In this document: positions 5,492 to 61,389 of the stretch, one piece after another
How the letters are laid out: every line of letters begins with the position of its first letter
Position numbering within the stretch: position 1 is the stretch's first letter
NCBI RefSeq assembly: GCF_002797445.1
Contig: NZ_PGEP01000001.1
Location: 1,487,001 to 1,551,000, forward strand
Direction: 5' to 3'
Length of the DNA stretch: 64,000 bases
Source of the DNA: Acidovorax sp. 69
GTDB taxonomy: Bacteria > Pseudomonadota > Gammaproteobacteria > Burkholderiales > Burkholderiaceae_C
Program-made: the position numbers and the translations under genes
The notes under the pieces: generated by a model
The model's database searches: none
Told to the model about the DNA's origin: nothing
The model's input: only the letters and a program-made list of their open reading frames with translations

Positions 5492-6322
5492 ATGGATTTG
5501 GGTATTGCAGGCAAATGGGCACTGGTGTGCGGCGCTAGCAAGGGGTTGGGCTATGGCTGCGCGCAAGCGCTGGTGCGCGAGGGTGTCAACGTGGTCATCA
5601 ATGCCCGCAACGCTGAGGCCTTGGATCAGGCTGCTATTCGTTTGATAGCTGAAAGTGCAAATCAGTCCGGCACTAGCGGCCAAAATGAATCCAAACCTCG
5701 CGTATTGGCCGTGGCTGCAGATATCACCACCGTCGAAGGGCGCGATGCCGTGTTTTCCGTGGCCGGTGGCCCTGGGCGTGATTTCGACATCGTTGTGACC
5801 AATGCGGGGGGGCCGCCCACCGGCGACTTCCGGGACTGGGATCGCACCGCATGGATCAAGGCAGTGGATGCCAACATGCTCACGCCCATCGAACTCATTC
5901 AGGCCACCGTGGATGGCATGGCAACGCGGGGTTTTGGCCGCATCATCAACATCACATCCAGTGCAGTGAAGGCGCCCATTGACATCCTGGGCCTCTCCAA
6001 CGGAGCGCGCAGCGGCCTCACAGGGTTTGTCGCTGGCGTGTCGCGCAGCAAGATTGCGGCGCATGGTGTCACCATCAACAACCTGCTGCCGGGTAAGTTC
6101 GACACGGACCGGCTGGCCGCAACGGTGAATGCCGCAGCCAGCAAGGCCGGTAAGAGTGTGGGCGACGTGCGTACTGCCCAGCAGGCGCAGATTCCTGCGG
6201 GGCGCTACGGAACGGCCGATGAATTTGGTGCGATCTGTGCGTTTTTGTGCAGCGTGCAGGCCGGCTACATGACAGGGCAGAACGTGCTGGCGGATGGCGG
6301 CGCCTACCCTGGCACGTTCTGA
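5492..6322 (+). CDS. SDR family oxidoreductase, atypical active site
   Basis: A 276-residue short-chain dehydrogenase/reductase (PF13561/PF00106). The Rossmann nucleotide motif GASKGLG is at residues 14-20, NAGG follows strand 4 and the Ser of ITSSA is present. The usual YxxxK catalytic pair is replaced: at the equivalent position the sequence reads LSNGARSGL, so Tyr and Lys appear as Ser and Arg. A divergent SDR subgroup with this change exists, and its chemistry is unclear. Residues about 48-67 are encoded by a copy of the dispersed 56-bp repeat and look like an insertion between helix B and the next strand. CGGAG precedes the ATG. A longer open frame reaching back to 4814 only shadows the SH3 gene. 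Confidence 0.85.
   Translation: MDLGIAGKWALVCGASKGLGYGCAQALVREGVNVVINARNAEALDQAAIRLIAESANQSGTSGQNESKPRVLAVAADITTVEGRDAVFSVAGGPGRDFDIVVTNAGGPPTGDFRDWDRTAWIKAVDANMLTPIELIQATVDGMATRGFGRIINITSSAVKAPIDILGLSNGARSGLTGFVAGVSRSKIAAHGVTINNLLPGKFDTDRLAATVNAAASKAGKSVGDVRTAQQAQIPAGRYGTADEFGAICAFLCSVQAGYMTGQNVLADGGAYPGTF
5633..5689 (+). repeat. Dispersed 56-bp repeat, copy inside the SDR gene
   Basis: Matches the window-wide pattern: GCTAT, seven bases, ATAGCTG, two bases, AGTGC, then ACTAGCGGCC and an A/T-rich end. It is translated in frame as AIRLIAESANQSG and onward. The same element frame in ileS gives [13 protein letters not shown]. Confidence 0.75.
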
Positions 6323-6492
6323 CGCTGAGCGAGTGCGGCGCTGGGTGACCTGCCCGTGGGCGGCGCGTTTTTGCTCGCACTTGTGCGGGTTGCGTCACTC
6401 GCCCGCTTGATAGGGGCGTGTGCGTGTTGTTTTGCCGACAGCCTGCCCGCCAAGCCGAAAAATTGGTGGAATACTGCGTTCCGACACTCGCC

Positions 6493-7605
6493 ATGCCTAC
6501 TCATTTCGCCCCACTGATGTCCCGCTTTCGCCTCTGGGCGATTCCCCTTTGTATGCTGTGGGCTGCCGGTGGCTGCGCGCTTGCGGCGGAACCTGCCTCT
6601 GCACCATCGCCTGCGAAGACCCCAGCGCCGTACAAGCTGCGCATTGTGGGTGGGCTGGCTGGCATCAGCCAGTATGTGCGGCAGGAAGAACCGTTCTGGA
6701 GCAAAGAGCTGCCGCGCCTGAGTGGGGGCCGTTTTCAGGCCGAGATCGTGCCGTTTGACCGTGCGGGTGTGCCAGGCGCAGAGATGCTGCGCCTGCTGCA
6801 ACTGGGTGTGGTGCCCTTTGGCACCACCCTGATGAGTTCATTCACCTCGCAGTACCCGGAGTACACAGCGCCCGATCTGGCGGGCCTTAATCCTGATATC
6901 GCCACACTCAAGACCACGCTGGCGGCATTTCGTCCGTATCTGGAGAAGGCCCTGCGTGACCAGCATGGCGTAGAGGCCTTGGCGGTGTATGTCTATCCCG
7001 CCCAGGTGGTGTTTTGCAAGAAGCCGCTGCGAGCGCTCGCAGACCTCTCCGGGCGTCGTGTCCGCGTGTCCTCGTCCACGCAGGCCGATTTTGTGGGCGC
7101 GCTCGGTGCAGTGCCGGTGCTGACCAGTTTTTCTCAGATTGTGCCCAGCTTGACGGCCGGCAATACCGAGTGCGCCATCACGGGCACCATGTCGGGCAAT
7201 ATGCTGGGCTTGCCAACACTGACCTCTCACGTTCACACACTGCCCGTGACCTGGGGCTTGGCCGTTTTTGGGGCCAATCAGGCCGCCTGGACTGCTTTGC
7301 CCCCCGATCTGCGTGAACTGCTGCAGCGCGAATTGCCCCGGCTGGAGGCTGCGATTTGGGCCGAATCCGAGCGCGAAACCGCTGACGGTATCGCCTGCAA
7401 CCGCGGTGCACCCACATGCGCTGCGGGCACCAAGGGGGCGATGGTGGTCGTGCCGGTCTCGCCGCAGGATGAGCGCAGCCGCCAGGAGATTCTGGCGACG
7501 ACCGTGCTGCCACGTTGGGTGCAACGTTGTGGTACGCGCTGTGCCCAGGTCTGGAACCAGACGATCGGGCCCGCGCGCGGCCTGCTGGCAGCCCCCGCGA
7601 AATAA
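6493..7605 (+). CDS. DctP-like TRAP solute-binding protein
   Basis: A roughly 370-residue exported protein of the DctP family (PF03480), the periplasmic binding component of TRAP transporters. A signal peptide ends near GCALA-AEP. The mature part has family landmarks: IPFD-type strand EIVPFDRAGVPG, the conserved LADLSGRRVRV segment, and NTECAITGTMSG near the ligand pocket. Extra Cys residues near the C-terminus (CNRGAPTCAAG, RCGTRC) could form disulfides. No TRAP permease gene (dctQ or dctM) is nearby. Instead the stop codon touches the ATG of a GGDEF/EAL gene, so the protein may sense a ligand for that enzyme. Starts at 6493 and 6517 are both possible; neither has a clear ribosome site. Confidence 0.8.
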   Translation: MPTHFAPLMSRFRLWAIPLCMLWAAGGCALAAEPASAPSPAKTPAPYKLRIVGGLAGISQYVRQEEPFWSKELPRLSGGRFQAEIVPFDRAGVPGAEMLRLLQLGVVPFGTTLMSSFTSQYPEYTAPDLAGLNPDIATLKTTLAAFRPYLEKALRDQHGVEALAVYVYPAQVVFCKKPLRALADLSGRRVRVSSSTQADFVGALGAVPVLTSFSQIVPSLTAGNTECAITGTMSGNMLGLPTLTSHVHTLPVTWGLAVFGANQAAWTALPPDLRELLQRELPRLEAAIWAESERETADGIACNRGAPTCAAGTKGAMVVVPVSPQDERSRQEILATTVLPRWVQRCGTRCAQVWNQTIGPARGLLAAPAK

Positions 7606-10275: not shown

Positions 10276-10358
10276 CCCGCGCGACGATGTGGCGGTGACC
10301 ACCGCCTGCCCATGGCCCACCACCCTGGCCGGACCTTGTAGGGATTTGGGGAATGATT

Positions 10359-10415
10359 GCTATATTTTTAATAGCTGATTGCGCTTTGTGGGTGGGCGCT
10401 AGAACCGATTTTTAC
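10359..10415 (+). repeat. Dispersed 56-bp repeat, intergenic copy
   Basis: Reads GCTAT, seven bases, ATAGCTG, then TGCGCTT and GGCGCTAGAACC with a T-rich end, the standard spacing. It lies between the ends of the converging GGDEF/EAL and EamA genes and is not translated. Confidence 0.75.
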
Positions 10416-10442
10416 TGAAACCGCCCGCCTCTGTCCATCAGA

Positions 10443-11490: not shown

Positions 11491-12474
11491 ATGAGCCTTG
11501 CCGTCCAGATCCGCCAGCACGGTGGTCCCGAAGAACTTCATATCGTTGACGTGACCGTGGGCGAGCCTGGCCCCGGTGAAGTCCGCATCCGCCACCACGC
11601 CATTGGCCTGAACTTCATCGACGTGTACCACCGCACCGGCCTGTACCCGCTCACCATGCCCGCCACCATCGGCATGGAAGGCGCGGGCGTGATCGAAGCC
11701 GTGGGCGAGGGCGTCGCGCACCTGAAGGTGGGCGACCGCGCCGCCTATGCCAGCAATCCGCCTGGCGCTTACTGCGAAGTGCGCGTGATGCCCGCCAAAT
11801 GTGTGTGCAAACTGCCCGACGCCATCAGCTTCGAGACCGGCGCGGCCATGATGCTCAAGGGCCTGACGGCGCAGTACCTGCTCAAGAAGACCTTGCCCGT
11901 GGAAGGCCTGCAGCCTGGCGACCATGTGCTGTTCCACGCTGCTGCCGGTGGTGTGGGCCTGATTGCCAGCCAGTGGGCCAAGGCCTTGGGCCTGCAACTC
12001 ATTGGTACGGCCGGGAGCGATGCCAAATGCCAACTGGCCCTGGCCAACGGTGCAGCGCATGCCATCAACTACAACACCGAAGATTTTGCGGCCCGGGTGA
12101 AGGAGATCACCGGTGGCAAGGGCGTGAAGGTGGTGTACGACTCGGTGGGCAAGGACACCTGGGACAAGTCGCTCGAATGCCTGCGCCCCTTTGGCCTGAT
12201 GGCCAGTTTCGGCAATGCATCAGGCCCGGTGGCGCCGTTTGCGCCGGGCTCGCTGGGCGCCAAGGGTTCGCTGTACGTCACGCGCCAGACGCTGTTCACC
12301 CACATCGCGACGCGCGAGGCCACGCAGGCCATGGCCGATGAACTTTTTGCCGTGGTGGCCAGTGGGCAGGTGAAGATCCACATCGACCAGCGCTACCCGC
12401 TGGCTGATGTGCAGCAGGCGCACCGCGATCTGGAAGCGCGCAAAACCACCGGCTGCACCATCCTCACGCTGTGA
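11491..12474 (+). CDS. qorA: NADPH:quinone oxidoreductase, MDR/zeta-crystallin type
   Basis: A 327-residue zinc-independent medium-chain reductase. The N-terminal GroES-like domain (PF08240) has NFIDVYHRTGLYP; the Rossmann domain (PF00107) has AAAGGVGLIASQWAKALG as nucleotide-binding loop. Both match quinone oxidoreductases such as E. coli QorA, which reduce quinones with NADPH in the cytoplasm. Cysteines for structural zinc are absent, as in that group. An AGGAG lies about ten bases before the ATG. Its stop overlaps the GTG start of the Nudix gene, so the two are translationally coupled. Confidence 0.9.
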   Translation: MSLAVQIRQHGGPEELHIVDVTVGEPGPGEVRIRHHAIGLNFIDVYHRTGLYPLTMPATIGMEGAGVIEAVGEGVAHLKVGDRAAYASNPPGAYCEVRVMPAKCVCKLPDAISFETGAAMMLKGLTAQYLLKKTLPVEGLQPGDHVLFHAAAGGVGLIASQWAKALGLQLIGTAGSDAKCQLALANGAAHAINYNTEDFAARVKEITGGKGVKVVYDSVGKDTWDKSLECLRPFGLMASFGNASGPVAPFAPGSLGAKGSLYVTRQTLFTHIATREATQAMADELFAVVASGQVKIHIDQRYPLADVQQAHRDLEARKTTGCTILTL

Positions 12475-13304
12475 ACGCGGCTGTTCAGACACCCACGTTC
12501 GACCAGTGGCTGGCGGGGGCGCGCCAGGCGTCGCAGCAGCCCCCGGTCCAGCCACGCCAACCCCTGGTGGTGGCCGGGCAGGTGGTGGGCTCGGTGGCGT
12601 CAGGGTTTTTAAACCAAATCCGCCTTGAGCGCTTTATTCATAAGCGCTACCAGCTATCAGAAACAGAGCATTCTCCGGGCCGTGCATGGCATTTGCAGGC
12701 ATCGTCCGCTGACACCACGGATGCCCTCAACACCCTGGCGGCCGCGCTGCGCGATGCGGGCCTGTGCGGCCCGTGGCGCGACGAGCAGCTGGCGGTGACC
12801 AACCCGGCGGGCGAGGTGGTCGGCACCGTGGAACGCGGGGCGGTGCGTGTGCTGGGCGTGGCCACCCGGGCCGTGCACCTGGTGGGCCTGGCGCCCGACG
12901 GCCGCATGTGGGTGCAAAAACGCGCGATGACCAAGCCCAACAACCCTGGGCTGTGGGACACGCTGATGGGTGGCATGGTCTCGGCCGCCGACTCACTGCC
13001 GCAGGCGCTGGCCCGCGAAACCTGGGAAGAGGCCGGTTTGCGGGTCGAGGCATTGGCCGACGTGGCCCACGGTGGTCAGGTGCTGTTCAGCCGCCCCAGC
13101 CGCGAGGGCGGTGGCGCGGGCTTCATGGTCGAGCGCATCGACTGGTTCTGCGCCCAGTTGCCTCAGGGCATGGAGCCCGACAACCAGGATGGCGAGGTCG
13201 AGCGTTTTGACCTGCTGCCTCTGGAGGTGGTGCGCGAGCGGGTGGCCCAGGGGGCGTTCACGCTGGAAGCTGGGCTGGTGATTGCGGGGTTTCTGGGGGT
13301 GTAG
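12471..13304 (+). CDS. Nudix hydrolase with DUF4743 N-terminal domain
   Basis: A 277-residue protein with an N-terminal DUF4743 region (PF15916) and a C-terminal Nudix domain (PF00293). The Nudix box spans about residues 167-190; the sequence has Asp (AAD) where the first Glu of the box is expected, then RETWEEAGL. This arrangement is found in thiamine-diphosphate-related Nudix proteins (Tnr3 and YJR142W relatives), so a thiamine-type pyrophosphate substrate is a reasonable guess. GTG at 12471 overlaps the stop of the quinone reductase (GTGA). Residues about 48-66 are encoded by an inverted copy of the dispersed repeat, apparently inserted within the DUF4743 part. Confidence 0.87.
   Translation: MNAAVQTPTFDQWLAGARQASQQPPVQPRQPLVVAGQVVGSVASGFLNQIRLERFIHKRYQLSETEHSPGRAWHLQASSADTTDALNTLAAALRDAGLCGPWRDEQLAVTNPAGEVVGTVERGAVRVLGVATRAVHLVGLAPDGRMWVQKRAMTKPNNPGLWDTLMGGMVSAADSLPQALARETWEEAGLRVEALADVAHGGQVLFSRPSREGGGAGFMVERIDWFCAQLPQGMEPDNQDGEVERFDLLPLEVVRERVAQGAFTLEAGLVIAGFLGV
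12613..12669 (-). repeat. Dispersed 56-bp repeat inside the Nudix gene
   Basis: On the minus strand it reads GCTCT, seven bases, ATAGCTG, two bases, AGCGCTTATG, AAAGCGCT and GGCGGATTT. It is translated antisense to the element in the frame giving NQIRLERFIHKRYQLSE. Confidence 0.75.
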
Positions 13305-17619: not shown

Positions 17620-20510
17620 CAGGCGTGCGCCCGGCTTTCGCCGGCCCCGTAGAGGTTGCTGGTGCAGCGGCCACAGATGGTGGGATGGGCGGCATCCTGC
17701 CCCACATCGCTGCGGTAGTGCCAGCAGCGCTCGCATTTGGTGTCAGAACTGGCCTTGACGCTTGTCTGTAAAGCGCTGCCAGCTACCACTTCAATAGCGG
17801 AGGTGATGAACACGAACTTCAGGTCCTCGCCGAGGCTGGCCAGAAGGGCGTGGTCCTCGGGGGCTGCCGTGAGGGTGACGGCCGCCTGCAGCGACGAGCC
17901 CACCTGACCGGCCGCACGCAGCACTTCGATCTCCTTGTTCACCACATCGCGGATTTCGCGCAGACGCGACCACTTGGCGAGCAGACCTTCGTCGGCACCC
18001 GCCATGGAGCCATAGGTTTCCAGGAAGATCGAGTCCGAGCTGCCAAACACCTTCCACGCCTCTTCGGCCGTGAACGACAGGAACGGTGCCATCCAGCGCA
18101 GCATGCCGTGGGTGATCTGGTACAGCGCCGTTTGTGCACTGCGGCGCGCCAGGCTCTTGGGCGCCGTGGTGTACAGGCGGTCTTTCAGCACATCGAGGTA
18201 GAAGCCACCGAGGTCTTCCGAGCAGTACAGTTGCAGCTTGGCCACCACGGGGTGGAACTCGTACACCCTGTAATGCGCGAGCACCTCGGCCTGGAACTCG
18301 GCCGCGCGCGTGAGCGCGTAGCGGTCGATCTCCAGCATTTGATCGAACGGCACGGCATCGGTGGCCGGGTCGAAGTCACTCACGTTGGCCAGCAGGAACC
18401 GCAGCGTGTTGCGGATGCGGCGGTAGGCATCCACCACACGCGCCAGGATCTTCTCGTCGCCCGCGATGTCGCCCGAGTAGTCGCTGGCCGCCACCCACAG
18501 GCGGATGATTTCGGCGCCCAGCTTCTTGTTGATCTCCTGCGGGTCGATGCCGTTGCCCAGCGACTTGCTCATCTTGCGGCCCTGGCTGTCCACGGTGAAG
18601 CCGTGGGTCAGCAGGCCACGGTAGGGCGCGCGGCCTTCGAGTGCGCTGGCCAGCAGCAGCGAGCTATGGAACCAGCCGCGGTGCTGGTCATGCCCTTCGA
18701 GGTACAGATCGGCCTCGGGGCCAGTGTCGTGGTGCACGTTGGGGTGCGTGCCGCGCAGCACATGGCTGAAGGTCGAGCCCGAGTCGAACCACACCTCCAG
18801 GATGTCGGTGCTCTTGGTGTAGCAAGCCGCGTCTTCGGCACCCAGGATTTCCTCCGTGGTCACGCGGCTCCAAGCCTCGATGCCACCCTTCTCCACGATA
18901 TCTGCCGCCTGGTCCAGGATCTCCATGGTGCGGGGGTGCAGTTCGCCCGAATCCTTGTGCAAGAAGAACGGGATGGGCACGCCCCAGCTGCGCTGGCGCG
19001 AGATGCACCAGTCGGGCCGCCCGGCGATCATGTCGTGCAGTCGGGTCTTGCCGTTTTCGGGATAGAAGCTGGTGTGCTCGATGGCGTCGAGAGCGATCTG
19101 GCGCAGTGTCTTGGCGGGCTTTTCGCCGGCCTTGGTGAATACGCCTTCGCCTTCGTCCATGCGCACGAACCACTGCGCGGCGGCGCGGTAGATCACCGGC
19201 GTCTTGTGGCGCCAGCAGTGCGGGTAGCTGTGGGTGATGTCCTTGGTGGTCATCAAGCGGCCCGCGTTGCGCAAGGCTTCGATGATGGCCGGGATGGCTT
19301 TCCAGATGTGCTGGCCACCGAACAGCGGGAAGTCGGCTGCGTAGGTGCCGTTGCCTTGCACGGGGTTCAGGATGTCGTCCAGCGCCATGCCGTGCGCAAC
19401 GCAGGAGTTGAAATCCTCCAGCCCGTAGGCGGGCGACGAGTGCACGATACCGGTGCCGTCGTCGGCCGTGGCGTAGTCGGCCAAGTAGACGGGCGACAGG
19501 CGCCGGTAGCCGAAACTGCCGTCTTCGCTGGCCACGTCGTACAGCGGGTGTTCAAATTCCAGCCCGCCCAGGTTTTTGCCCAGGGTGGTGGCAATGACAC
19601 TGCCGGTCAGGCTGTAGCGCTCCAGGCACGATGCGACCAGTGGCTCGGCCACCAGCAGGATGCGCTCGCCGGTGTCGACCAGCGCGTAGCTGATCTCGGG
19701 ATTCAGGTTCAGCGCCTGGTTGGCCGGGATGGTCCAGGCGGTGGTGGTCCAGATGACCACGAAGGCTTCTTTGGTCAGTGCGGGCAGGTCAAATGCGGCT
19801 GCCAGTTTGGCGGGCTCATGCGATTTGAACGCTACGTCCAGCGTGGTGCTGCCTTTGTCCTGGTATTCGATCTCAAACTCGGCCAGCGACGATCCGCAGT
19901 CAAAACACCAGTACACGGGCTTGAGGCCACGGTACACAAAACCGCGCTCGATCACGCGCTTGAACGCACGGATCTCGCCCGCCTCGTTGGCGGGGTTCAT
20001 GGTCTTGTAGGGGTTGTCCCATTCGCCCAGCACACCCAGGCGCTGGAAGTCGACCATTTGCTGCGCGATCTGTTCGGTGGCAAACGCACGGCTCTTGGCC
20101 TGCATGTCGTCGCGCGACAGTTTGCGGCCGTGCTTCTTTTCGATGGCGTTCTCGATCGGCAGGCCGTGGCAGTCCCAGCCGGGCACATACAGCGCGTCAA
20201 AGCCTTCGAGCTGGCGCGCCTTGGTGATCATGTCCTTCAGGATCTTGTTGACCGCGTGGCCCATGTGGATCTGGCCGTTGGCGTAGGGCGGGCCGTCGTG
20301 CAGGATGAACTTGGGCGCGCCCCGGCGTGCGTCGCGCAGGCGTTTGTAGATGCCTTTGTCGTCCCACTCCTTGACCCAGCCCGGCTCGCGCTTGGGCAGG
20401 TCGCCGCGCATGGGGAAGGGGGTGTCGGGCAGGTTCAGCGTGCTGCGGTAGTCCGTGGCGGGGGGCGCTGCGGAAGCTGTGGAGGGGGTGCTGGCGTTGT
20501 CGTCGGACAT
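17619..20510 (-). CDS. ileS: Isoleucyl-tRNA synthetase
   Basis: A 963-residue class I synthetase that charges tRNA-Ile in the cytoplasm. The HIGH-type signature is [11 protein letters not shown] after PPYA, and KMSKS appears as [10 protein letters not shown]. The editing domain includes [14 protein letters not shown]. The C-terminal zinc finger has CERCWHY and a later CGRC pair. The protein is slightly longer than E. coli IleS: it has an N-terminal Ala/Ser-rich extension, and the linker just before the zinc finger (residues about 905-923) is encoded by a copy of the dispersed repeat. It is the middle gene of ribF-ileS-lspA. Confidence 0.98.
17743..17798 (-). repeat. Dispersed 56-bp repeat inside ileS
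   Basis: On the coding strand it reads GCTAT, seven bases, GTAGCTG, GC, AGCGCTTTA, CAAGCGTCAAGGCCAG. It is translated as [19 protein letters not shown], in the same element frame as the SDR copy (AIRLIAESANQSG). Confidence 0.75.
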
Positions 20511-21670: not shown

Positions 21671-21676
21671 CGGTCT

Positions 21677-21733
21677 GTTATCTTTTTGATAGCAGCATGC
21701 GCAGGTACATCAAGCGCAAGACGCCAATTTGTC
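21677..21733 (+). repeat. Dispersed 56-bp repeat upstream of ribF
   Basis: GTTAT, seven bases, ATAGCAG, two bases, TGCGC, then AAGCGCAAGACGCCAATTT with the family spacing. It begins six bases outside the ribF start codon, so it forms part of the ribF leader if transcribed with it. Confidence 0.65.
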
Positions 21734-21837
21734 ATGGAAACGGAGTATATTGTGATGGACAGGCTGCAGAGTGCCAGCGGCCTGCGAGACATCTGCGTTC
21801 CGAATCCTTGTGTACTTTGTGTCCCAGGAGGCGTGTT

Positions 21838-28831: not shown

Positions 28832-29947
28832 TTAGGCAAACACGCCAGCAGTGTCCTGCATGCGGGCCGACACTTCACCCAGGTGGTGCAGTGTGTCACC
28901 GAACGTCGTTTCCAGCTGCGTGAACTTCTTGAAGTAGTGGCTGCCGATGTACTCGTCGGTCACGCCGATACCGCCATGCAGTTGCACCGATTGCTGGCCC
29001 ACAAAACGCATGGACTGACCCAGCTGCACCTTGGCGCGGGCCATGGCAGCACGGCGCTCGGCAGCGGGGGCACCGAGCTTGAGGCTGGCGTAGTAGCTCA
29101 TCGAGCGGGCCAGCTCCAGCTGCATCTTCATGTCGGCCACGCGGTGGCGCAGGGCCTGGAAGCTGGCGATGAACACGCCGAACTGCTTGCGCTGGTTCAT
29201 GTATTCCACGGTCAAGGCGACGGTCTTGTCCATCACGCCCACGGCCTCGGCGCAGGTCGCGGCGATGCCCGTGTCCACGGCGAGTTCCAGCGCGGCCAGG
29301 CCGTCGGCAGTGATGAGCGTGGCGGGGGCGTTGACCAGTTGCACTTCAGCGGCGCGGCTGCCGTCCTGCGTGATGTAGCCCTTGGTGGTGACGCCAGTGG
29401 CCGAGCGCTCCACCAGGAAGAGGGCGATCTTTCCGTCGAGCTGCGCCGGTACGATGAAGGCGTCGGCCAGGTCACCAGCCGCCACTATGCTTTTGGTAGC
29501 TGTTACCGTATGTTCCGCCTGCGCTGGAGCCGCTTTTGCCTCGCAAACATCCAGGCGGTAGCGCGCCTTGCGCTCCTGGTAGGCCAGCACCACCAGCGCT
29601 TCGCCGCTGGCCACGCGGGGCAGCCAGGCGGATTGCACGGCAGCGGGGGCATAGTGGGTCAGCACACTGCTGGCGATGAAGGCCTGCGCAATGGGCTCCA
29701 GCACCATGCCTCGGCCCAGTTCCTCGGCCACCACCATGGCGTCGATAGCGCCCTGGCCCATGCCGTCATGGGCTTCGGGCACGGTGAGTGCAGTCAGGCC
29801 CAGTTCGGCCAGTTCGCCCCAGGCGGCGCGGTCAAAGCCACCGGTAGCCACAGCGGTGCGGCGGCGCTCAAACGTGTAGCCCTTGTCCACCCACTTGCGC
29901 ACGGCGTCGCGCAGTTGTTCCTGGTCGTCAGAAAAATCGAAATCCAT
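28832..29947 (-). CDS. Acyl-CoA dehydrogenase family protein (second gene of the pair)
   Basis: A 371-residue FAD-dependent acyl-CoA dehydrogenase (PF02771/PF00441). Visible landmarks are the N-terminal helical domain from FDFSDDQEQLRDAVRKW, the EYMNQRKQFG segment, and QLHGGIGVTDEY near the flavin site. The loop at residues 137-155, between the N-terminal and beta domains, is encoded by an inverted copy of the dispersed repeat. It follows the other dehydrogenase on the same strand by 130 bases. Such pairs act together on CoA-thioester substrates such as steroid or branched side chains in actinobacteria and betaproteobacteria; the substrate here is not determined. Confidence 0.88.
   Translation of the reverse strand: MDFDFSDDQEQLRDAVRKWVDKGYTFERRRTAVATGGFDRAAWGELAELGLTALTVPEAHDGMGQGAIDAMVVAEELGRGMVLEPIAQAFIASSVLTHYAPAAVQSAWLPRVASGEALVVLAYQERKARYRLDVCEAKAAPAQAEHTVTATKSIVAAGDLADAFIVPAQLDGKIALFLVERSATGVTTKGYITQDGSRAAEVQLVNAPATLITADGLAALELAVDTGIAATCAEAVGVMDKTVALTVEYMNQRKQFGVFIASFQALRHRVADMKMQLELARSMSYYASLKLGAPAAERRAAMARAKVQLGQSMRFVGQQSVQLHGGIGVTDEYIGSHYFKKFTQLETTFGDTLHHLGEVSARMQDTAGVFA
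29484..29540 (+). repeat. Dispersed 56-bp repeat inside the acyl-CoA dehydrogenase gene
   Basis: ACTAT, seven bases, GTAGCTG, then a degenerate ACCGT, TGCGCTGGAGCCGCTTTT. The core is weaker than in other copies but the spacing is exact. The coding strand reads it antisense as PAQAEHTVTATKSIVAA, resembling the RarA and PhhB stretches. Confidence 0.6.
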
Positions 29948-32874: not shown

Positions 32875-32954
32875 CTCCGGTGGGGGCGCAAATGCCTGCC
32901 AAGTGCCGTGGGCGCTCCGGGCTGGCGAATATAACGGCCCTTTAGAACTTTGAT

Positions 32955-33010
32955 GCTATCAAAATATGAGCTGCTAGCGCTTATTCGATAAGCGCTATCA
33001 GTCATTTTTA
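32955..33010 (+). repeat. Dispersed 56-bp repeat, intergenic copy with the best palindrome
   Basis: GCTAT, seven bases, GAGCTG, two bases, AGCGCTTATTCGATAAGCGCT, then T-rich tail. The central AGCGCTTAT/ATAAGCGCT palindrome is perfect here. It lies between the converging purN and EF-hand genes in a 260-base gap. Confidence 0.78.
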
Positions 33011-33134
33011 TTCAATAGAGATAGCTCCGGGTATTGCCGTGGCTTCTGGCGCGCGCAGCTCGTCAACTGACGGGCGAATCGCACTGCGCGGCCAGAACGC
33101 AGGGGCGGGCCCGAGGGGCCAGATGGGTGGGCGG

Positions 33135-46468: not shown

Positions 46469-46514
46469 CCGGGCAGGGCGCCGAGCCTGGCCCATGCCCC
46501 CACAGGAGTTTCTG

Positions 46515-47147
46515 TTGAAAAAGATCGCCACTGCAATTTTGATAGCAGCCAGTGCATCGTTGGCTAGCGCTGACGGCTTGAAAAGCCTGGAATCCTTCAT
46601 GAAGGGTACACAGGCAGGCAGGGCCGACTTCAGTCAGACCGTGACCTCACCGCCCAAGGAGGGGCAGGCGGTACGCACCAAGATTTCCAGCGGCAGCTTT
46701 GAGTTTCAGCGCCCGGGGCGCTTCAAGTTTGTCTACAAAAAGCCGTTTGAGCAGACCATCGTGGCTGACGGCCAGACCCTGTGGCTCTATGACGTGGACC
46801 TGAACCAGGTCACCCAGCGCTCGCAGTCCCAGGCGTTGGGCAGCACGCCCGCTGCGCTGCTGGCGTCGGCGCCCGACCTGTCGGCGCTCAAGGCCGAGTT
46901 CACGCTGGAGGCTTCGCCCGACCAGGATGGCCTGCAGTGGGTGCTGGCCAGCCCCAAGACCAAGGACGGGCAGCTCAAGAGCGTGCGTGTAGGCTTTGCG
47001 GCGGATCAGCTGGCGGCGCTCGACATCCTGGACAGCTTTGGCCAGCGTTCGCTGATTCGTTTCACCGGGATGCAGGCCAACGCGTCGCTGCCCGCCAGCA
47101 CGTTCCAGTTCAGGCCGCCCGCCGGGGCGGATGTGGTGAAACAGTAG
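46515..47147 (+). CDS. lolA: Outer-membrane lipoprotein carrier protein LolA
   Basis: A 210-residue periplasmic chaperone (PF03548) that takes lipoproteins from LolCDE to LolB. The mature domain has ADFSQTVTSPP, SGSFEFQRPGRFKFVYKKPFEQTIVADG and LWLYDVDLNQVT, all typical. The start is TTG at 46515 with AGGAG seven bases upstream, giving a signal peptide that ends ASLASA-DG. That signal peptide is the stretch that resembles the dispersed repeat. It follows ftsK by 46 bases, a conserved ftsK-lolA-rarA order. Confidence 0.94.
   Translation: MKKIATAILIAASASLASADGLKSLESFMKGTQAGRADFSQTVTSPPKEGQAVRTKISSGSFEFQRPGRFKFVYKKPFEQTIVADGQTLWLYDVDLNQVTQRSQSQALGSTPAALLASAPDLSALKAEFTLEASPDQDGLQWVLASPKTKDGQLKSVRVGFAADQLAALDILDSFGQRSLIRFTGMQANASLPASTFQFRPPAGADVVKQ
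46533..46583 (+). repeat. Possible dispersed-repeat remnant in the lolA signal peptide
   Basis: GCAATTTTGATAGCAGCC, then AGTGC and GCTAGCGCTGACGGC follow the family order but with a shorter first spacer. Its translation AILIAASA matches the frame of the SDR and IleS copies. Convergence with a normal signal peptide is possible. Confidence 0.4.
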
Positions 47148-47150
47148 GTT

Positions 47151-47207
47151 GCTGCGAAAAAGATAGCTGCCAGCGCTTTATAGTAGAGCGCTAGAGGCCA
47201 GTTTGGC
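47151..47207 (+). repeat. Dispersed 56-bp repeat, intergenic copy before rarA
   Basis: GCTGC, seven bases, ATAGCTG, two bases, AGCGCTTTA, then AGAGCGCTAGAGGCCAGTTTG: a near-ideal copy in the lolA-rarA gap, ending about 28 bases before the rarA start. Confidence 0.78.
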
Positions 47208-47234
47208 CTAAAAACGGCGTGACGTAGACAGGAC

Positions 47235-48599
47235 ATGAACATGGCAGCACGCAGTGCCTCCGCCCCTTCTCAGGCACACCAGGCGCACCCCTCGGCCCAC
47301 CAGCCCCTGGCAGAGCGCCTGCGGCCCCGCACGTTGGGCGAGGTGATCGGGCAACAGCATGTGCTGGGCCCGGGTATGCCGCTGCGTCTCGCTTTTGAAT
47401 CGGGGCGCCCGCACAGCTGTATTCTTTGGGGCCCGCCCGGTGTCGGCAAGACCACCATTGCGCGCCTGATGGCCGATGCGTTTGATGCGCAGTTCATCAG
47501 CATCAGCGCCGTGTTGGGCGGGGTCAAGGACATCCGTGAGGCCGTGGAGCGCGCCGAGGCAGCGCGCGACGGGCTCATGCAGCAGCGCACCATCGTGTTT
47601 GTCGATGAGGTGCACCGCTTCAACAAGAGCCAGCAGGACGCCTTTTTGCCGCATGTGGAGGGTGGCCTGTTCACCTTCATCGGGGCCACCACCGAGAATC
47701 CATCCTTCGAAGTCAACTCGGCGTTGTTGTCGCGTGCAGCGGTCTACGTGCTGCAGCCTTTGTCCGAGCCAGATTTGAAGCAAATTGTGGCCCTGGCACA
47801 GGCAGAGAAAGCGCTGCAAGCTATCGAAGATGTAGCAATCGACCGGCTGGTGGCGTATGCCGACGGCGATGCCCGCCGATTGCTCAACACACTCGAAACC
47901 CTGGCCATGGCGGCCACGCAGGAGAAGCTGGACCAGATCACCGACGTCTGGCTGCTCAAGGTGCTGGGCGAGCGCATGCGCCGCTACGACAAGGGCGGCG
48001 AGCAGTTCTACGACACCATCAGCGCGCTGCACAAGTCGGTGCGCGGCTCCGACCCCGACGCCGCGCTGTACTGGCTGGTGCGCATGCTCGACGGCGGTGC
48101 CGATCCGCGCTACATGGCCCGCCGCCTGGTGCGCATGGCGAGCGAAGACATTGGCCTGGCCGACCCGCGCGCCCTGCGCCTGGCGCTGGACGCCACCGAG
48201 GTCTACGAGCGCCTGGGCACGCCCGAGGGAGAGCTGGCGCTGGCAGAGTGTGTGGTCTACCTGGCCGTGGCGCCCAAGTCCAATGCGGTCTACAAGGCCT
48301 ACAACGCAGCCCGCGCCTGGGTGAAGGCGGATGGCACGCGCCCCGTGCCGATGCATCTGCGCAACGCACCCACCCAGCTCATGAAGCAGCTCGACTACGG
48401 CAAGGGCTACCGCTACGCCCACGACGAAGAGGGCGGTTTTGCAGCGGGCGAGAGCTACCTGCCTGAAGGCATGCCCGAGCCCGGTTTCTACCAGCCGGTG
48501 GAGCGGGGGCTGGAGATCAAGATTGCGCAGAAGATGCGCAACCTGCGAGAGCGCAACACCACCGCAGGCCATGGCGGAGACTTCGGCGAGGAGTCTTGA
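47235..48599 (+). CDS. rarA: Replication-associated recombination protein A (MgsA/RarA)
   Basis: A 454-residue AAA+ clamp-loader-like ATPase that acts at stalled forks. Walker A is GPPGVGKTTIAR, Walker B is IVFVDEVHRFN, sensor 1 is GATTENPSFEV, and the C-terminal MgsA domain (PF12002) follows from about residue 260. Residues 183-201 (QIVALAQAEKALQAIEDVAI), in the small helical lid region, are encoded by an inverted repeat copy. Start ATG 47235 and ATG 47241 are both possible; AGGA has better spacing for 47241. It closes the ftsK-lolA-rarA group. Confidence 0.95.
   Translation: MNMAARSASAPSQAHQAHPSAHQPLAERLRPRTLGEVIGQQHVLGPGMPLRLAFESGRPHSCILWGPPGVGKTTIARLMADAFDAQFISISAVLGGVKDIREAVERAEAARDGLMQQRTIVFVDEVHRFNKSQQDAFLPHVEGGLFTFIGATTENPSFEVNSALLSRAAVYVLQPLSEPDLKQIVALAQAEKALQAIEDVAIDRLVAYADGDARRLLNTLETLAMAATQEKLDQITDVWLLKVLGERMRRYDKGGEQFYDTISALHKSVRGSDPDAALYWLVRMLDGGADPRYMARRLVRMASEDIGLADPRALRLALDATEVYERLGTPEGELALAECVVYLAVAPKSNAVYKAYNAARAWVKADGTRPVPMHLRNAPTQLMKQLDYGKGYRYAHDEEGGFAAGESYLPEGMPEPGFYQPVERGLEIKIAQKMRNLRERNTTAGHGGDFGEES
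47780..47836 (-). repeat. Dispersed 56-bp repeat inside rarA
   Basis: On the minus strand GCTAC, seven bases, ATAGCTT, two bases, AGCGCTTTC, then TGCCAGGGCCACAATTTG. Translated antisense as EKALQAIEDVAI, resembling RRALTATEVVAN in PhhB and HTVTATKSIVAA in the dehydrogenase copy, all in the same element frame. Confidence 0.7.
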
Positions 48600-52574: not shown

Positions 52575-52605
52575 GGCCCGTGGGTGGCAATTAAGTTGTG
52601 AAATT

Positions 52606-52662
52606 GCTATGCTTTATATAGCTACTTGTGCATATTCCATAAGCGCAATCTGGCATTTTGTT
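52606..52662 (+). repeat. Dispersed 56-bp repeat, intergenic copy after livF
   Basis: GCTAT, seven bases, ATAGCTA, two bases, TGTGC, then AAGCGCAATCTGGCATTTTG. It lies in the 520-base gap between livF and the DUF47 gene; apart from this copy, the livF terminator and the motif at 52955 I see nothing else in that gap. Confidence 0.72.
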
Positions 52663-52954
52663 CATAATTTGCTTTCTACCAAAGTTGTGGCACCCATCAC
52701 CTCGCCATGGGTGCCCTTCCATCTTTGGCATCGCGCCGGGCTTGTGTGCCTTTTTCCGGGCTTTGTATGGGCCAGCCACCGAAATGGGACGACCCGTTGG
52801 CAGGGTCCTGCCGAGTAGGTGTGTGTATTTCATTGCCTGCAGTGGTTGAAGGGGCGCTTTCTGGGGGCCTGCGGTAGCCCCAGTCTTGCCCGACGTCACC
52901 ACCGGTGGGCCTTGGTCCGTCAGGTCGGACGGTTAAACTCGCCGGGTCACGAAA

Positions 52955-53682: not shown

Positions 53683-54692
53683 ATGGAAACCGTACAGACG
53701 GCCCTGTGGGTTGTGGTTTTGCTTGTGGCGTTGGCGATCCTGTTCGACTTCATGAACGGGTTCCACGACGCGGCCAATTCGATTGCCACGGTGGTGTCCA
53801 CCGGGGTGCTCAAGCCGGCACAGGCGGTGTTATTTGCCGCTTTCTTCAATTTTGTGGCCATCTTCATCTTCCACCTCAGTGTGGCCGCGACGGTGGGCAA
53901 AGGCATCGTGCAGCCCGGCGTGGTCGATACCCATGTGGTGTTCGGTGCCCTGGTCGGCGCAATCACCTGGAATGTGATCACCTGGTACTACGGCATCCCC
54001 AGCAGCTCTTCGCATGCGCTTATCGGTGGCATTGTGGGGGCCGTGATTGCCAAGGCGGGGGCGGGTGCCCTGATGTCCGCCGGTATTCTCAAGACCGTGG
54101 CGTTCATCTTCGTTTCGCCGTTGCTGGGTTTTGCATTGGGGTCGCTGATGATGGTGGCTGTGGCATGGATCTTCCGGCGGACGCGACCGAGCAAGGTGGA
54201 CAAGTGGTTCCGCCGGTTGCAGTTGGTGTCTGCGGGCGCGTACAGCCTGGGCCATGGTGGCAACGATGCACAAAAGACCATCGGCATCATCTGGTTGCTG
54301 CTGATTGCGACGGGGTACTCGTCGGCATCTGACGCATCGCCGCCGGTTTGGGCCATCGTGAGTTGCTATGTGGCCATCGGCCTCGGGACCATGTTTGGTG
54401 GCTGGCGCATCGTGAAAACCATGGGCCAGAAAATTACCAAGCTCAAGCCCGTGGGTGGCTTCTGTGCCGAGACAGGTGGTGCGATGACGCTGTTTCTGGC
54501 GACCACGCTGGGGATTCCGGTCTCGACCACCCACACGATCACCGGCGCGATCGTCGGGGTGGGCTCTACCCAGCGCGCCAGTGCTGTGCGTTGGGGGTGG
54601 CGGGCAACATCATCTGGGCCTGGATTCTGACCATTCCTGCCAGCGCGTTTGTGGCCGCCGTGGCCTACTGGATCAGCCTGCAAATCTTCTGA
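53683..54692 (+). CDS. pitA: PiT family inorganic phosphate permease, frameshifted in this sequence
   Basis: A phosphate:cation symporter (PF01384) of about 336 residues with ten or so membrane spans. The two repeated signatures are FDFMNGFHDAANSIATVVSTGVL and SLGHGGNDAQKTIG; VSTTHTITGAIVG is also typical. As given, the frame breaks near the end: the run of five G at 54593-54597 must hold six to continue VAGNIIWAWILTIPASAFVAA to the stop at 54692. One added base restores a full-length protein, which points to a sequence error. DUF47 precedes it and a terminator follows. Confidence 0.92.
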
Positions 54693-54750
54693 TCGTCAGT
54701 GCCCTCTGGGCGGAGGCCGGCGAAATGCTGCTGGTGCTCCCTGAAAAGCA

Positions 54751-54793
54751 CCAAAGCCCCGGCGGATGTTCATCTGCCGGGGCTTTGGTTTTT
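54751..54793 (+). terminator. Terminator after the PiT gene
   Basis: A perfect 13-bp stem (CCAAAGCCCCGGC and its complement) with a 12-base loop, followed by T residues. It can also stop transcription of the convergent TM2 gene. Confidence 0.9.
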
Positions 54794-54815
54794 GCGACAA
54801 CGGGCCGTGGGGTGC

Positions 54816-55262
54816 CTACTGCGAGATCTTGCGGGCTTCCTCGATCTGGTACTCGAAGTACCTCTGAAAACTGAAAGCGAGGCTGGCCATGAGCACTGTG
54901 GTGCCGATCAGCAGCGACACCACAATGGCACCGATGGTGATCCACTGGGTTCTCCCTGGCTCGGCGTCTGGCGCGGCGCTGGGGTTGAAGCGGGCGTTCC
55001 AGGCCTCGGGCGTCATCAGTGCGTACAGAATGGCGCGCAGTGCACACCCTGCAATCGTGAAGCCCAGCAACGGTATCAGCACCCAGCTGTAATGGTCGTC
55101 CTGCCCCAGTTGCTGGACCCGCTGGATGCCGTAAATGCCCAAGGCCGTCGGGATGGGGAGCAGCCAGCCGAGCATGTCGGAGAGGCCGTGCAGGTAAAAG
55201 CGGTGCAGGCCCAGCGGGCCGCCCACGAAGGCGAGCCAGGCCGCCACGGTTTTGTTTTTCAT
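54816..55262 (-). CDS. TM2 domain membrane protein
   Basis: A 148-residue small membrane protein. It starts MKNKTVAAWLAFVGGPLGLHRFYLHG, the TM2-domain signature (PF05154), and has about four hydrophobic segments with a polar loop (FNPSAAPDAEPGRTQ). Function unknown. It lies 10 bases downstream of the GNAT gene on the same strand, so the two may be co-transcribed. Confidence 0.75.
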   Translation of the reverse strand: MKNKTVAAWLAFVGGPLGLHRFYLHGLSDMLGWLLPIPTALGIYGIQRVQQLGQDDHYSWVLIPLLGFTIAGCALRAILYALMTPEAWNARFNPSAAPDAEPGRTQWITIGAIVVSLLIGTTVLMASLAFSFQRYFEYQIEEARKISQ

Positions 55263-58204: not shown

Positions 58205-58221
58205 GGTCCTTGCTTGCTTTT

Positions 58222-58941: not shown

Positions 58942-58998
58942 ACCTGGAGCGCACGCAATGAGGTGGGTTGATGCGAAGCACCAGTATCATTGCCCCCC

Positions 58999-59985: not shown

Positions 59986-60093
59986 GGGCGCCGTTCCCTG
60001 CATAGATCTCTGTGACTGCCCCGGAAGGGGATGGACCCGGCTGCCTGGCGGAGCCAGGTTCACAAGTGTGCTCTGGTGTAGGCCGTTGCAGCA

Positions 60094-61038
60094 TCAATAA
60101 CGGGTATGGCTCAGTTCTTCGAATAGGTCGCTATATATTTTGTAGCGTTTAGCGCTTATACCACCGGCACTAGCGCCTGTTTTGACTGCATCCAGCACGC
60201 CGCAGCCTGGCTCGTGCAGATGCGTGCAGTTGTAGAACTTGCAGTCGGTGGCGTGTTCGGCAATGTCGGGCATGCAGGCGGCCAGTTGCATGGGGGCAAT
60301 GTGGTGCAGCCCAAACTCCTGAAAACCCGGAGAGTCGATCAGTGCTGTGGTTCGTGCCGCATCCATCCAGTACCAATGGGTGCTGGTCGTGGTGTGTTTG
60401 CCCGAGTTCAGGGCCTGTGATATCTCGCCAGTCAGCACGGAGGCGCCCGGTACCAGCAGGTTGATCAGCGTGCTCTTTCCGGAGCCCGAGGGGCCCAGTA
60501 CCAGCGTGGTTTTGCCCTGCAGGTGTTCCATCAGCAGGGCGCGGTCCACGTCGCTGGAGAGCGCCAGAGACAACGGCAGCACACCATAGTGCTTGCCTGA
60601 ACCCATGCGGCGGTACGGCAGCAATCGCTCCCAGGCGCGGGCAAAGGGCTCGATCAGATCACTTTTGTTGAGCGCAATGAGGGGCTTGATGCCCTCTGCC
60701 TCGGCAGCGATCAGCGCGCGGGAGAGTTGACTTTCGGAGAATACGGGCTCTGCAGCGATCAGGATCAGCACCTGGTCGAGGTTGGCCGCAAATGACTTGG
60801 TGCGAATTTCGTCTTGGCGGTAAAAAAGATTGCGCCGCTCCTGCACCTTCTCGATGGTGCCTTCTTCGCCCTGGCCGGGCGGTGGTGCTTGCCACAAGAC
60901 GTGGTCACCGACCACAGCCTGGCTTTTTTTGCCCCGGGGATGGCAGATGCGGCGTTCTCCATCCGGGGTCTCGACCATGCAGTGGCGCCCATGGCTGGCC
61001 ACCACGGTACCTTCCATGAGGGCGCTGCGTTCAGCCAT
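60094..61038 (-). CDS. rsgA: Small ribosomal subunit biogenesis GTPase RsgA
   Basis: A 314-residue circularly permuted GTPase (PF03193) that checks late 30S assembly. An OB fold (about residues 8-80) comes first, then G4 NKSD, G1 GPSGSGKST and G3 DSPGF, and a C-terminal zinc site CKFYNCTHLHEPGC. Residues 285-303 (AVKTGASAGGISAKRYKIYS), in the C-terminal helix, are encoded by a repeat copy. It is the last gene of an Ste24-like protease, phhB, rsgA series (12 bases after phhB). Confidence 0.96.
   Translation of the reverse strand: MAERSALMEGTVVASHGRHCMVETPDGERRICHPRGKKSQAVVGDHVLWQAPPPGQGEEGTIEKVQERRNLFYRQDEIRTKSFAANLDQVLILIAAEPVFSESQLSRALIAAEAEGIKPLIALNKSDLIEPFARAWERLLPYRRMGSGKHYGVLPLSLALSSDVDRALLMEHLQGKTTLVLGPSGSGKSTLINLLVPGASVLTGEISQALNSGKHTTTSTHWYWMDAARTTALIDSPGFQEFGLHHIAPMQLAACMPDIAEHATDCKFYNCTHLHEPGCGVLDAVKTGASAGGISAKRYKIYSDLFEELSHTRY
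60130..60186 (+). repeat. Dispersed 56-bp repeat inside rsgA
   Basis: GCTAT, seven bases, GTAGCGT, two bases, AGCGCTTAT, then GGCACTAGCGCCTGTTTTG. The gene reads it antisense in a frame different from those used in the Nudix and rarA genes. Confidence 0.72.
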
Positions 61039-61050
61039 GGTGGGCCTGTG

Positions 61051-61389
61051 TCACAGCGCGACCAGTGCGTCGAACTGGGTGGCACACTCGAAGTCGGTGC
61101 TGGAGATGCCATGCACATCGTGCGTGTTCAGTCGCACCACGCAACGGTTGTAGTGCACCGACAGGTCGGGGTGATGGTCCTGGGCGTTTGCGATAAAAGC
61201 CAAGGCGTTCACGAACGAGATGGTTTCGTAGTAGTTGGCGAACTGGTAGGTCTTTTCGATGGCGACATTGGCGCCGTCGCCGCTCAGGCTCCAGCCTTCC
61301 AGTTTGGCGAGGTTTGCTACAACTTCGGTAGCTGTCAGTGCACGGCGGGTCAGCGCGGACCAGTCTTTTTTCTTCAACATGGTAGTCAT
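61051..61389 (-). CDS. phhB: Pterin-4a-carbinolamine dehydratase
   Basis: A 112-residue PCD/DCoH protein (PF01329) that recycles the pterin cofactor of phenylalanine hydroxylase. The active-site stretch DHHPDLSVHYNRCVVRLNTHDVHG has the expected paired His and the downstream Trp/His pattern. Its ATG overlaps the stop of the Ste24-like protease (ATGA), so it is translationally coupled. The N-terminal 20 residues (ALTRRALTATEVVANLA) may be encoded by a degenerate repeat copy. Confidence 0.93.
   Translation of the reverse strand: MTTMLKKKDWSALTRRALTATEVVANLAKLEGWSLSGDGANVAIEKTYQFANYYETISFVNALAFIANAQDHHPDLSVHYNRCVVRLNTHDVHGISSTDFECATQFDALVAL
61316..61371 (+). repeat. Possible dispersed repeat at the start of phhB
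   Basis: GCTAC, seven bases, GTAGCTG, two bases, AGTGC, then AGCGCGGACCAGTCTTTTTT. Spacing fits, but the right half is degenerate. Its antisense translation RRALTATEVVAN matches those of the RarA and dehydrogenase copies. Confidence 0.45.

Follow-up and report, generated by a model that had tools for sequence, protein, structure and literature searches.

A dispersed motif of about 67 bp in Acidovorax that arose mostly in place and may be an uptake-signal-type sequence

The question raised by this locus is how one and the same pattern came to stand in so many spacers and housekeeping genes of an Acidovorax genome. The window, a stretch of 64,000 nucleotides of Acidovorax sp. 69, was originally predicted to contain a 56-bp repeat family, half of whose copies lie in frame inside genes, following the logic of Rickettsia palindromic elements. 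The dispersed copies are indeed a true repeat family, but the unit was underestimated: it measures about 67 bp, the information being at background beyond positions 0–68.

All eleven clear copies lie at the places and on the strands first reported. In spacers, all on the plus strand, they are found between convergent genes (10356..10422, 58.8 bits; 32952..33018, 57.4 bits), between divergent genes (21674..21740, 54.6 bits, with orthologous copies at L031, L032, L033, L051 and L048), between lolA and rarA (47148..47214, 60.0 bits, a spacer in which other species have copies too) and between co-oriented genes (52603..52669, 56.6 bits). Six clear copies are inside genes, in either orientation, and are read in frame without stops: 5630..5696 (plus strand, 52.1 bits) in an SDR gene (5429-6322, plus), 12606..12672 (minus, 57.0 bits) in a Nudix gene (12471-13304, plus; the copy is also present in A. 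radicis, L031, and Simplicispira, L033), 17735..17801 (minus, 46.1 bits) in ileS (17619-20510, minus), before the zinc finger, 29481..29547 (plus, 51.5 bits) in an acyl-CoA dehydrogenase gene (28832-29947, minus), 47773..47839 (minus, 49.6 bits) in rarA (47235-48599, plus) and 60127..60193 (plus, 54.1 bits) at the 3' end of rsgA (60094-61038, minus). Pfam confirms these six hosts, as adh_short for the SDR and RarA/MgsA for rarA.

Two weaker copies had been suspected near 46533 and 61316. The first (46527..46593, plus, 23.0 bits) is at the 5' end of lolA (46494-47147, plus), in what appears by eye to be the signal-peptide region, and the second (61313..61379, plus, 23.7 bits) is inside a pterin-4a-carbinolamine dehydratase gene (61051-61389, minus); Pfam identifies the hosts as LolA and pterin-4a-carbinolamine dehydratase. 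Both copies are real, since other species have copies at corresponding offsets, with 28–39 bits in G007, G010, G014 and G037 for the first and 27–43 bits in G007, G010, G011, G013, G014, G037 and G043 for the second; orthology means here a matching offset rather than an alignment, and 4 of the 20 relatives could not be placed by the peptide anchor.

The eleven clear copies align without gaps over 61 columns, which hold 49 bits of information. Each of them matches 35–44 letters of a 60-letter consensus that was derived from these same copies; in 50 first-order Markov shuffles of the window, all counts stayed below 34. With a covariance model trained on the eleven copies, these score 46–60 bits, by construction, and the weak ones are then recovered too, 61313 at E 0.004 and 46527 at E 0.0057. 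In genome G000, 97 copies were counted in 820 kb (118 per Mb, or about 590 per genome), and none in one shuffled control; the density in G007 is 180 per Mb. Counts from wider genome scans, in which at most 54 or at most 18 candidates were scored per genome, or 150 of 2673 candidates in another scan, are lower bounds. Across 20 stretches of 20 kb, spaced evenly over the genome of the window, the final profile finds 48 copies of at least 28 bits, and nothing above 10.1 bits in five shuffles. A frequency far above chance, as originally claimed, is thus observed on either strand, in genes and in spacers, and shuffled sequence never matched the real scores.

The claim that half of the copies are in genes is correct for the window (6 of 11, and both weak copies) and does not extend to the 400-kb sample, where 9 of the 48 copies are inside genes, 13 overlap the end of a gene and 26 lie between genes, genes having been predicted there with a hexamer script; 87.7% of the sampled sequence and window is coding. 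The high in-gene share is therefore peculiar to the window. The 39 sample copies that are not inside genes are in convergent (17) and co-oriented (22) spacers, and none is in a divergent one.

Were these copies inserted? Rickettsia palindromic elements, which are inserted blocks, also lie in frame inside housekeeping genes in either orientation, and the sharp ends and near-symmetric, palindromic consensus of the motif would suit a mobile element of RPE, REP or MITE type that was inserted long ago and then decayed. The reference for empty sites is G042, an element-poor genome of the same genus (2 copies of at least 25 bits in 365 kb). From regions of G000 and G007, two genomes that have many sites in common, 118 copies were taken; 58 are anchored on both sides in G042 and 60 have no two-sided anchor. 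G042 also has a copy or a remnant (24–43 bits) at four of the 58 sites. At the other 54, the length difference is at most 16 bp in 39 cases and lies outside this limit in 15; G042 is shorter by 50–80 bp, as an empty site of about unit length should be, at just four, two of which are a single spacer locus (−69 and −66 bp) that looks like the gain or loss of a unit.

The coding copies give a similar picture. When 35 of them from G000 and G007 were compared with the proteins of G042, 26 could be aligned (the other 9 lacked a protein match, and no copy was excluded because of a short alignment): 20 blocks are free of gaps and six have gaps of 2–9 residues, none of which comes near the block length. 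In the window, two of the six clear coding copies speak for insertion, the blocks in the SDR and Nudix genes being 9 and 6 amino acids longer than in G042, while neither gap nor indel relative to G042 is seen in the blocks of ileS, the acyl-CoA dehydrogenase gene, rsgA and the two hosts of weak copies, nor in rarA relative to G039, G042 and G049. By alignment count, 73 of 80 ileS orthologues agree in the length of this stretch, the seven that differ all lacking the motif, and the rarA block is ungapped across 16 relatives, three of them without the motif. Among 13 relatives with the motif, 12 have the rarA copy at an identical coordinate (the best register in G010 is 30 bp off).

Copies are present or absent at the same site between species, but the check proposed with the original prediction, that orthologues should differ by having or lacking precisely this block, fails. 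As for finding the same residues in distant orthologues, which the prediction had set against itself, the aligned stretch is there at the same place, but it is written in ordinary GC-rich codons instead of the motif. At most tested sites the motif thus arose in place, by substitution, and not by block insertion. The likeness to Rickettsia palindromic elements fails because orthologous sites mostly match in length, most Acidovorax coding sites having no extra residues. We rejected RPE, REP and MITE insertions on these lengths, and consider an old, decayed mobile element very improbable.

The substitutions are largely where codons allow them. At the 20 ungapped coding sites, third positions match the consensus at 0.60 in motif-bearing genomes versus 0.25 in G042, the values in 170 shifted windows of the same genes being 0.19 and 0.18, respectively: coding copies fit the motif mainly through third codon positions. 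The amino-acid identity of the coding blocks is 0.66 versus 0.88 in controls, but it may be that the blocks occupy permissive regions, so that this lower identity is no proof of a cost.

Replacement at constant length could also result from copying, if similar stretches were overwritten through short ectopic conversion or by single-stranded motif copies that anneal at forks; the residual linkage that we find between motif columns in 61 aligned copies would be accounted for as well. However, copying should leave near-identical pairs, and the best pair among these 61 copies, about a tenth of those in the genome, is 77.6% identical; moreover, coding copies match largely where codons permit. We regard this mechanism as rather improbable.

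What is conserved tells more about the nature of the motif. An orthologous copy exists in G007 for 33 of 49 G000 copies. In the 22 noncoding pairs, the more informative columns are the better conserved ones (rho 0.79, p 4e-16), with 89% identity in high-information columns versus 57% in low ones; in the 11 coding pairs the correlation is 0.35 (p 0.003). Neutral decay of a mobile element would not give such a variation between columns. As regards pairing, a counting tool detects no covariation of paired columns (its score was reached by 126 of 500 shuffles), and in our own test of three helices, helices 1 and 3 show none, while two pairs of helix 2, the central palindrome, have p values of 0.021 and 0.046. 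The palindromes are present in the consensus only, and the paired columns, taken together, do not covary, which also speaks against a mobile element. A hairpin RNA or single-strand element was rejected on this ground, and the structure-based model was kept as a search tool only; the motif behaves as a duplex-DNA sequence without constraint on paired columns. No match to the 4227 Rfam families exceeds the gathering score in the window.

REP elements with their RAYT are similar to the motif in being mostly extragenic, with a 3'-end bias and a palindromic consensus, and differ in that the motif lacks covariation, is mostly not inserted and also lies in genes. A Y1/RAYT-type gene (PF01797) does not track the motif: within the genus, all 6 element-poor genomes have matches, and so do 38 of the 41 element-rich ones; RAYT was discarded as the driver, and this distribution is one more argument against a mobile element.

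A near-symmetric consensus without covariation and with strongly constrained columns is what one would expect of a chromosomal site for an abundant protein that bends or wraps DNA (a nucleoid organiser, a gyrase-type site or a termination factor), each copy being under selection, mostly at 3' ends and in convergent spacers. The distribution among spacers of at least 60 bp is consistent with it: 12 copies per 34 convergent versus 3 per 41 divergent spacers in G000, and 12 per 25 versus 4 per 29 in G007. Dialects, which would also follow a changing protein, are seen at column 42 of the 67 tested, where 65 of 72 G007 copies have C and where G stands in 10 of the 15 copies from Rhodoferax and in 7 of the 13 from Polaromonas, small samples both; two of the 67 columns set G000 apart from G007 (p<1e-4). 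On the other hand, some 590 copies with so much information would be far beyond what is needed to find a site, and selection would hardly see the weak columns of single copies; the copies in ileS, rarA and rsgA change housekeeping codons, and G042, of the same genus, is almost devoid of the motif. We consider such a binding site unlikely, though less so than copying.

The best explanation, to which we give about even chances, is that the motif is an uptake-signal-type sequence which biased DNA uptake, together with recombination, has spread in place. The copies would be instances of a long double-stranded recognition motif. If the type IV pilus uptake machinery of competent Comamonadaceae prefers DNA that bears it, then alleles nearer to the motif would be over-represented among recombinants, and sites would be ratcheted closer to the consensus within the limits set by gene function, a form of molecular drive. 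We infer in this way both the driver, biased DNA uptake, and the direction of gain or loss at single sites.

Like the USS of Pasteurellaceae and the DUS of Neisseriaceae as described in PMC7811141, PMC2397512 and PMC4212676, the motif has hundreds of copies per genome, on either strand, in genes and spacers, evolves by substitution and recombination rather than insertion, and has dialects in related lineages; their hosts are competent and have type IV pili, and for Acidovorax competence is reported in the literature for some species. USS in particular are described as arising by point mutation, not as inserted elements, and as having dialects (PMC7811141). PMC4212676 reports natural competence for A. 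temperans, A. facilis and Verminephrobacter eiseniae; transformation of A. temperans succeeded only with DNA of its own species, and uptake by V. eiseniae looks selective; in Table 1 of that paper, no transformation was detected for A. defluvii and A. delafieldii, two of the four Acidovorax species tested. The two columns that distinguish G000 from G007 are too few to explain why A. temperans refuses other Acidovorax DNA.

Several observations weigh against the uptake-signal explanation. First, at 67 bp the motif is far longer than known uptake sequences, and its density is below that of H. influenzae, whose genome is about 1.8 Mb. The known sequences have 9–11 bp (PMC4212676), and H. influenzae has 1,465 copies of a core that is accompanied by AT tracts (PMC7811141). 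As the motif has about 67 informative positions versus a short core of about 9–12 bp, a lower density and another bacterial family, we liken it to USS and DUS in its working and do not class it as a member. Second, comEC is retained by most element-poor relatives, and a ComP-like pilin by those in which it was searched. In the genus, 5 of the 6 element-poor genomes have ComEC, as do 39 of the 41 element-rich ones; PF16732 (ComP_DUS) pilins occur in 53 of the 60 genomes searched, rich and poor alike, and pass the cut-off in all four element-poor genomes of that search, which G039 and G042 were outside. In the genomes searched, neither gene discriminates element-rich ones, and none of the genes found there (comEC, ComP-like pilin, Y1/RAYT-type) tracks the motif. 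Copies are spaced more evenly than random in G007 (p 0.014), an effect that G000 does not show (p 0.84). The residual linkage between columns, the two helix-2 pairs with low p values, the 15 sites outside the 16-bp limit, the spacer locus that looks like gain or loss of a unit and the two Acidovorax species without transformation weigh on the same side.

Well-studied uptake sequences come from two bacterial families, and whether drive alone or a benefit maintains them is still debated. The motif could be a third, independently evolved system outside Pasteurellaceae and Neisseriaceae, with a several-fold longer motif and genus dialects, through which housekeeping proteins of many Comamonadaceae would have been recoded in part and by which the selective uptake of Verminephrobacter would be accounted for; we hold this a little less probable than not. 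If true, this third case, in partly competent environmental bacteria and with a very different motif, would be an independent test of drive versus benefit, and analyses of codon usage and selection in proteins of these bacteria would meet non-adaptive recoding at many sites. Whatever the driver, a 67-bp motif that spread mainly by substitution and not by transposition is unusual.

Like the original prediction, which did not recognise the family, we found no name for it in the literature, and a search on DNA uptake sequences and Comamonadaceae returned no paper. Parts of it seem to have been seen before: Table 7 of PMC5217627 lists spaced motifs of Acidovorax ebreus, GCTTAT(N)5AAGCG, and Polaromonas naphthalenivorans, ATAGCT(N)22CAAAAG, with 114 and 125 copies, mostly intergenic and, in A. 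ebreus, rarely divergent (4 of 107). To judge from their letters, both look like parts of the 67-bp motif. They are treated there as separate unexplained motifs obtained by pattern search, in a section that does not deal with an in-place origin, the full 67-bp unit or dialects.

On an ileS tree of 81 rows, the motif label, given to the window and to 14 loci with at least 31 bits at the site (L101, with 30, was left out), needs at least 7 changes over the starred branches. Last, we note that viral contigs have 74 stretches with the core pattern; these contain, in 706 kb, 102 copies of at least 25 bits, most of them the very matches by which the stretches were picked.

All 11 clear and 2 weak copies of the 56-bp repeat in the original prediction are found in the window. 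The 11 clear copies align without gaps, each with 35–44 of 60 consensus letters, while 50 shuffles of the window never reached 34. The window (G000:C1:1487001-1551000) lies in a complete genome of 4.97 Mb, and its closest named relative by ileS is Acidovorax radicis N35. An iterated profile run over 400 kb of this genome, in 20 stretches at even spacing, detects 48 copies of at least 28 bits; the top score of the final profile in the shuffled 400 kb (n = 5) is only 10.1 bits. The sample and a contiguous region together contain 97 copies in 820 kb, which corresponds to about 590 copies per genome if the remainder is similar. The information of the motif is limited to positions 0–68, TTTGCTATTAAATTGATAGCTGCTAGCGCTTGATAGATAAGCGCTAGAGGCCATTTTGACTCAAAAT. 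By eye, AT-rich tracts lie near columns 12, 34, 55 and 66, spaced by about one to two helical turns, and recall the AT tracts in the uptake sequence of H. influenzae.

PMC5217627 reports two spaced motifs as potentially novel and of unknown role. One, GCTTAT(N)5AAGCG, has 114 copies in A. ebreus, 107 of them intergenic (44 convergent, 4 divergent and 59 co-oriented); the other, ATAGCT(N)22CAAAAG, has 125 copies in Polaromonas naphthalenivorans. Judging from their letters, both look like parts of the present 67-bp motif. No description of the motif as an uptake sequence was found in the literature searched, which was mostly open-access.

The idea that the repeat is present or absent as a block between orthologues does not hold in ileS, where the stretch is equally long in 73 of 80 orthologues and the 7 that differ are without the motif. 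The 14 motif-bearing ileS loci (from Acidovorax, Simplicispira, Diaphorobacter nitroreducens, Polaromonas, two Rhodoferax and some MAGs) have 28–40 of 60 consensus letters at the DNA level; the remaining loci, including those of Variovorax, Comamonas and Hydrogenophaga, have 18–30, mostly 18–24, and GC-rich codons. On an ileS tree built without the motif block (81 rows, 15 of them labelled), the distribution of the motif label requires 9 changes, 7 or more of them across starred branches. The rarA copy is present in 13 of 16 placed relatives, at the identical coordinate in 12 and with a best register 30 bp off in the genome G010; it is absent from G039, G042 and G049, where the alignment is gap-free too.

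A bulk comparison was made with G042, an element-poor genome of the same genus, which has 2 copies of at least 25 bits in 365 kb, versus 49 in 460 kb of the window's genome (G000) and 69 in 400 kb of G007, an element-rich Acidovorax. Anchors on both sides were obtained in G042 for 58 of the 118 copies of the latter two; the counts from the two genomes are not independent, since many sites are common to both. The lengths agree within 16 bp at 19/24 genic and 23/34 non-genic sites, and G042 is 50–80 bp shorter at 1/24 and 3/34, respectively. At 4 of the 34 non-genic sites a copy or remnant (24–43 bits) is present in G042 too; when these are excluded, 39/54 sites are within 16 bp and 4/54 are shorter by 50–80 bp. 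For copy-free control spacers, 33/88 are within 16 bp of equal length. The alignments at the anchored sites show substitutions spread over the block. The equal lengths in ileS, in rarA and in this comparison lead us to reject an inserted block as the origin of most sites. One locus, with differences of −69 and −66 bp for G000 and G007, looks like the gain or loss of a unit.

The window copies in ileS, acyl-CoA dehydrogenase, rarA and rsgA form gap-free blocks against G042, and the SDR and Nudix blocks are longer by 9 and 6 amino acids. In all, 26 of 35 coding copies align to a G042 protein, 20 without gaps and 6 with gaps of 2–9 residues. At the 20 ungapped sites, the motif-bearing genomes agree with the consensus at 0.56, 0.62 and 0.60 of first, second and third codon positions, and G042 at 0.44, 0.53 and 0.25; in 170 shifted control windows of the same genes the values are 0.25, 0.25 and 0.19, and 0.25, 0.25 and 0.18, respectively. 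The motif is therefore attained chiefly via third codon positions, where the match is 0.60 versus 0.25. It may be either that the protein at these places already fitted the motif or that G042 lost the motif and kept part of the residues. Compared with G042, the motif blocks have an amino-acid identity of 0.66 and the controls one of 0.88; a permissive location, as reported for DUS and USS (PMC2397512), may contribute to this lower identity.

The spacer near 54.7 kb of the window (54600-54840) has no copy and, by eye, a terminator-like inverted repeat instead. The same spacer carries a strong copy in G007 and in three further genomes (G013, G001 and G037), a weak one in G017, and none in two element-poor genomes. 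The copy stands at two different positions among the relatives, which is suggestive of repeated birth of copies within one spacer. The motif copy in the lolA–rarA spacer of G037 (L190) appears, by eye, to have a short tandem duplication at its left end.

An orthologous copy exists in G007 for 33 of 49 copies of G000, and in the 22 noncoding pairs conservation tracks column information (rho 0.79, p 4e-16), with 89% identity in high-information columns versus 57% in low-information ones; the trend is weaker in the 11 coding pairs (rho 0.35, p 0.003). Such column-wise conservation would not result from the neutral decay of old insertions. Three palindromes were tested for covariation and none covaries as a set, the central one having two pairs at p 0.021 and 0.046; hairpins are therefore hardly the feature that is maintained. 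Among 61 aligned copies, about a tenth of those of the genome, the mean identity is 52.6%, the highest pair reaches 77.6%, and there are no fresh duplicates. Column linkage exceeds that of shuffles, mostly between neighbouring columns and slightly at distance.

That half of the copies lie in genes is true of the window (6 of 11 clear copies) but not of the 400-kb sample (9 of 48), so that the window is atypical in this respect. The other sample copies are intergenic (26) or overlap a gene end (13), in sequence that is 87.7% coding; these 39 copies are in convergent (17) or co-oriented (22) spacers, and never in divergent ones. Over its contiguous region, G000 has 3 copies in divergent and 12 in convergent spacers, for 41 divergent and 34 convergent spacers of at least 60 bp; in that of G007 there are 4 and 12 copies, for 29 and 25 such spacers, respectively.

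Within the genus, 41 of 47 genomes have at least 27 matches and six have 0–2, among no more than 54 scored candidates per genome. At least one match occurs in 7 of 12 other genera of the family, and none in 40 genomes from other families; in a wider draw, with 18 candidates per genome scored, at least 61 of 299 family members and at least 36 of 141 genera have a match at E 1e-5. The core of the motif shifts by genus: column 42 is C in 65/72 G007 copies and G in 10/15 Rhodoferax and 7/13 Polaromonas copies, a change that disrupts the palindrome, while column 30 is T in 55/72 G007 copies and never in the 13 copies of Polaromonas, whose column 31 is mostly C. The exact core is also held by 74 stretches of public contigs labelled viral (L297–L370), some contigs with several copies; these stretches may be phage or flanking host DNA.

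By analogy with uptake signal sequences, biased DNA uptake with recombination is the most likely driver of the motif, a reading to which we give about an even chance: the preferential uptake of motif-bearing DNA, followed by recombination, would shape the copies in place. The likeness lies in the in-place origin, the column constraint, the use of synonymous positions, the occurrence on both strands, the 3'-end preference and the dialects. Uptake signal sequences change through point mutation rather than being inserted elements (PMC7811141, where uptake in H. influenzae was sequenced with a rec2 mutant), and recombination is emphasised in the birth of Neisseria DUS (PMC2397512). The known competence of relatives fits partly. 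PMC4212676 describes natural competence in A. temperans, A. facilis and Verminephrobacter eiseniae, while detecting none in A. defluvii or A. delafieldii; A. temperans was transformed with own-species DNA only, and up to a 1500-fold excess of salmon DNA cut the transformation of V. eiseniae only about tenfold. Donor DNA in that study included cloned pilBC and ptsI fragments, and its consulted passages name no uptake sequence for these species. Competent laboratory strains are A. temperans ATCC 49665, A. facilis ATCC 11228 and V. eiseniae EF05-2. The length of the motif counts against uptake, as does the small dialect difference of the two Acidovorax species G000 and G007 (2 of 67 columns). So do the presence of comEC in 5 of 6 element-poor genomes and the finding that each of the 4 element-poor genomes searched for such a pilin has one above the ComP_DUS cut-off.

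In G049, comEC matches in three pieces (G049:C1:1836740-1837544) and the gene is possibly broken; an 80-kb sample of this genome still has 14 motif copies. Of the 47 genomes in the genus, 44 have a match to PF01797 (RAYT-like), as a rule a single one, with or without the motif; that of the window's genome is at G000:C1:4101634-4101915. The genome G041 has 37 matches to this IS200-type transposase family, most scoring identically, as if an insertion sequence had recently multiplied there. Last, the window contains an inverted repeat of 31 nt (32012-32042 / 32242-32272), 97% complementary, with 199 nt between its arms.
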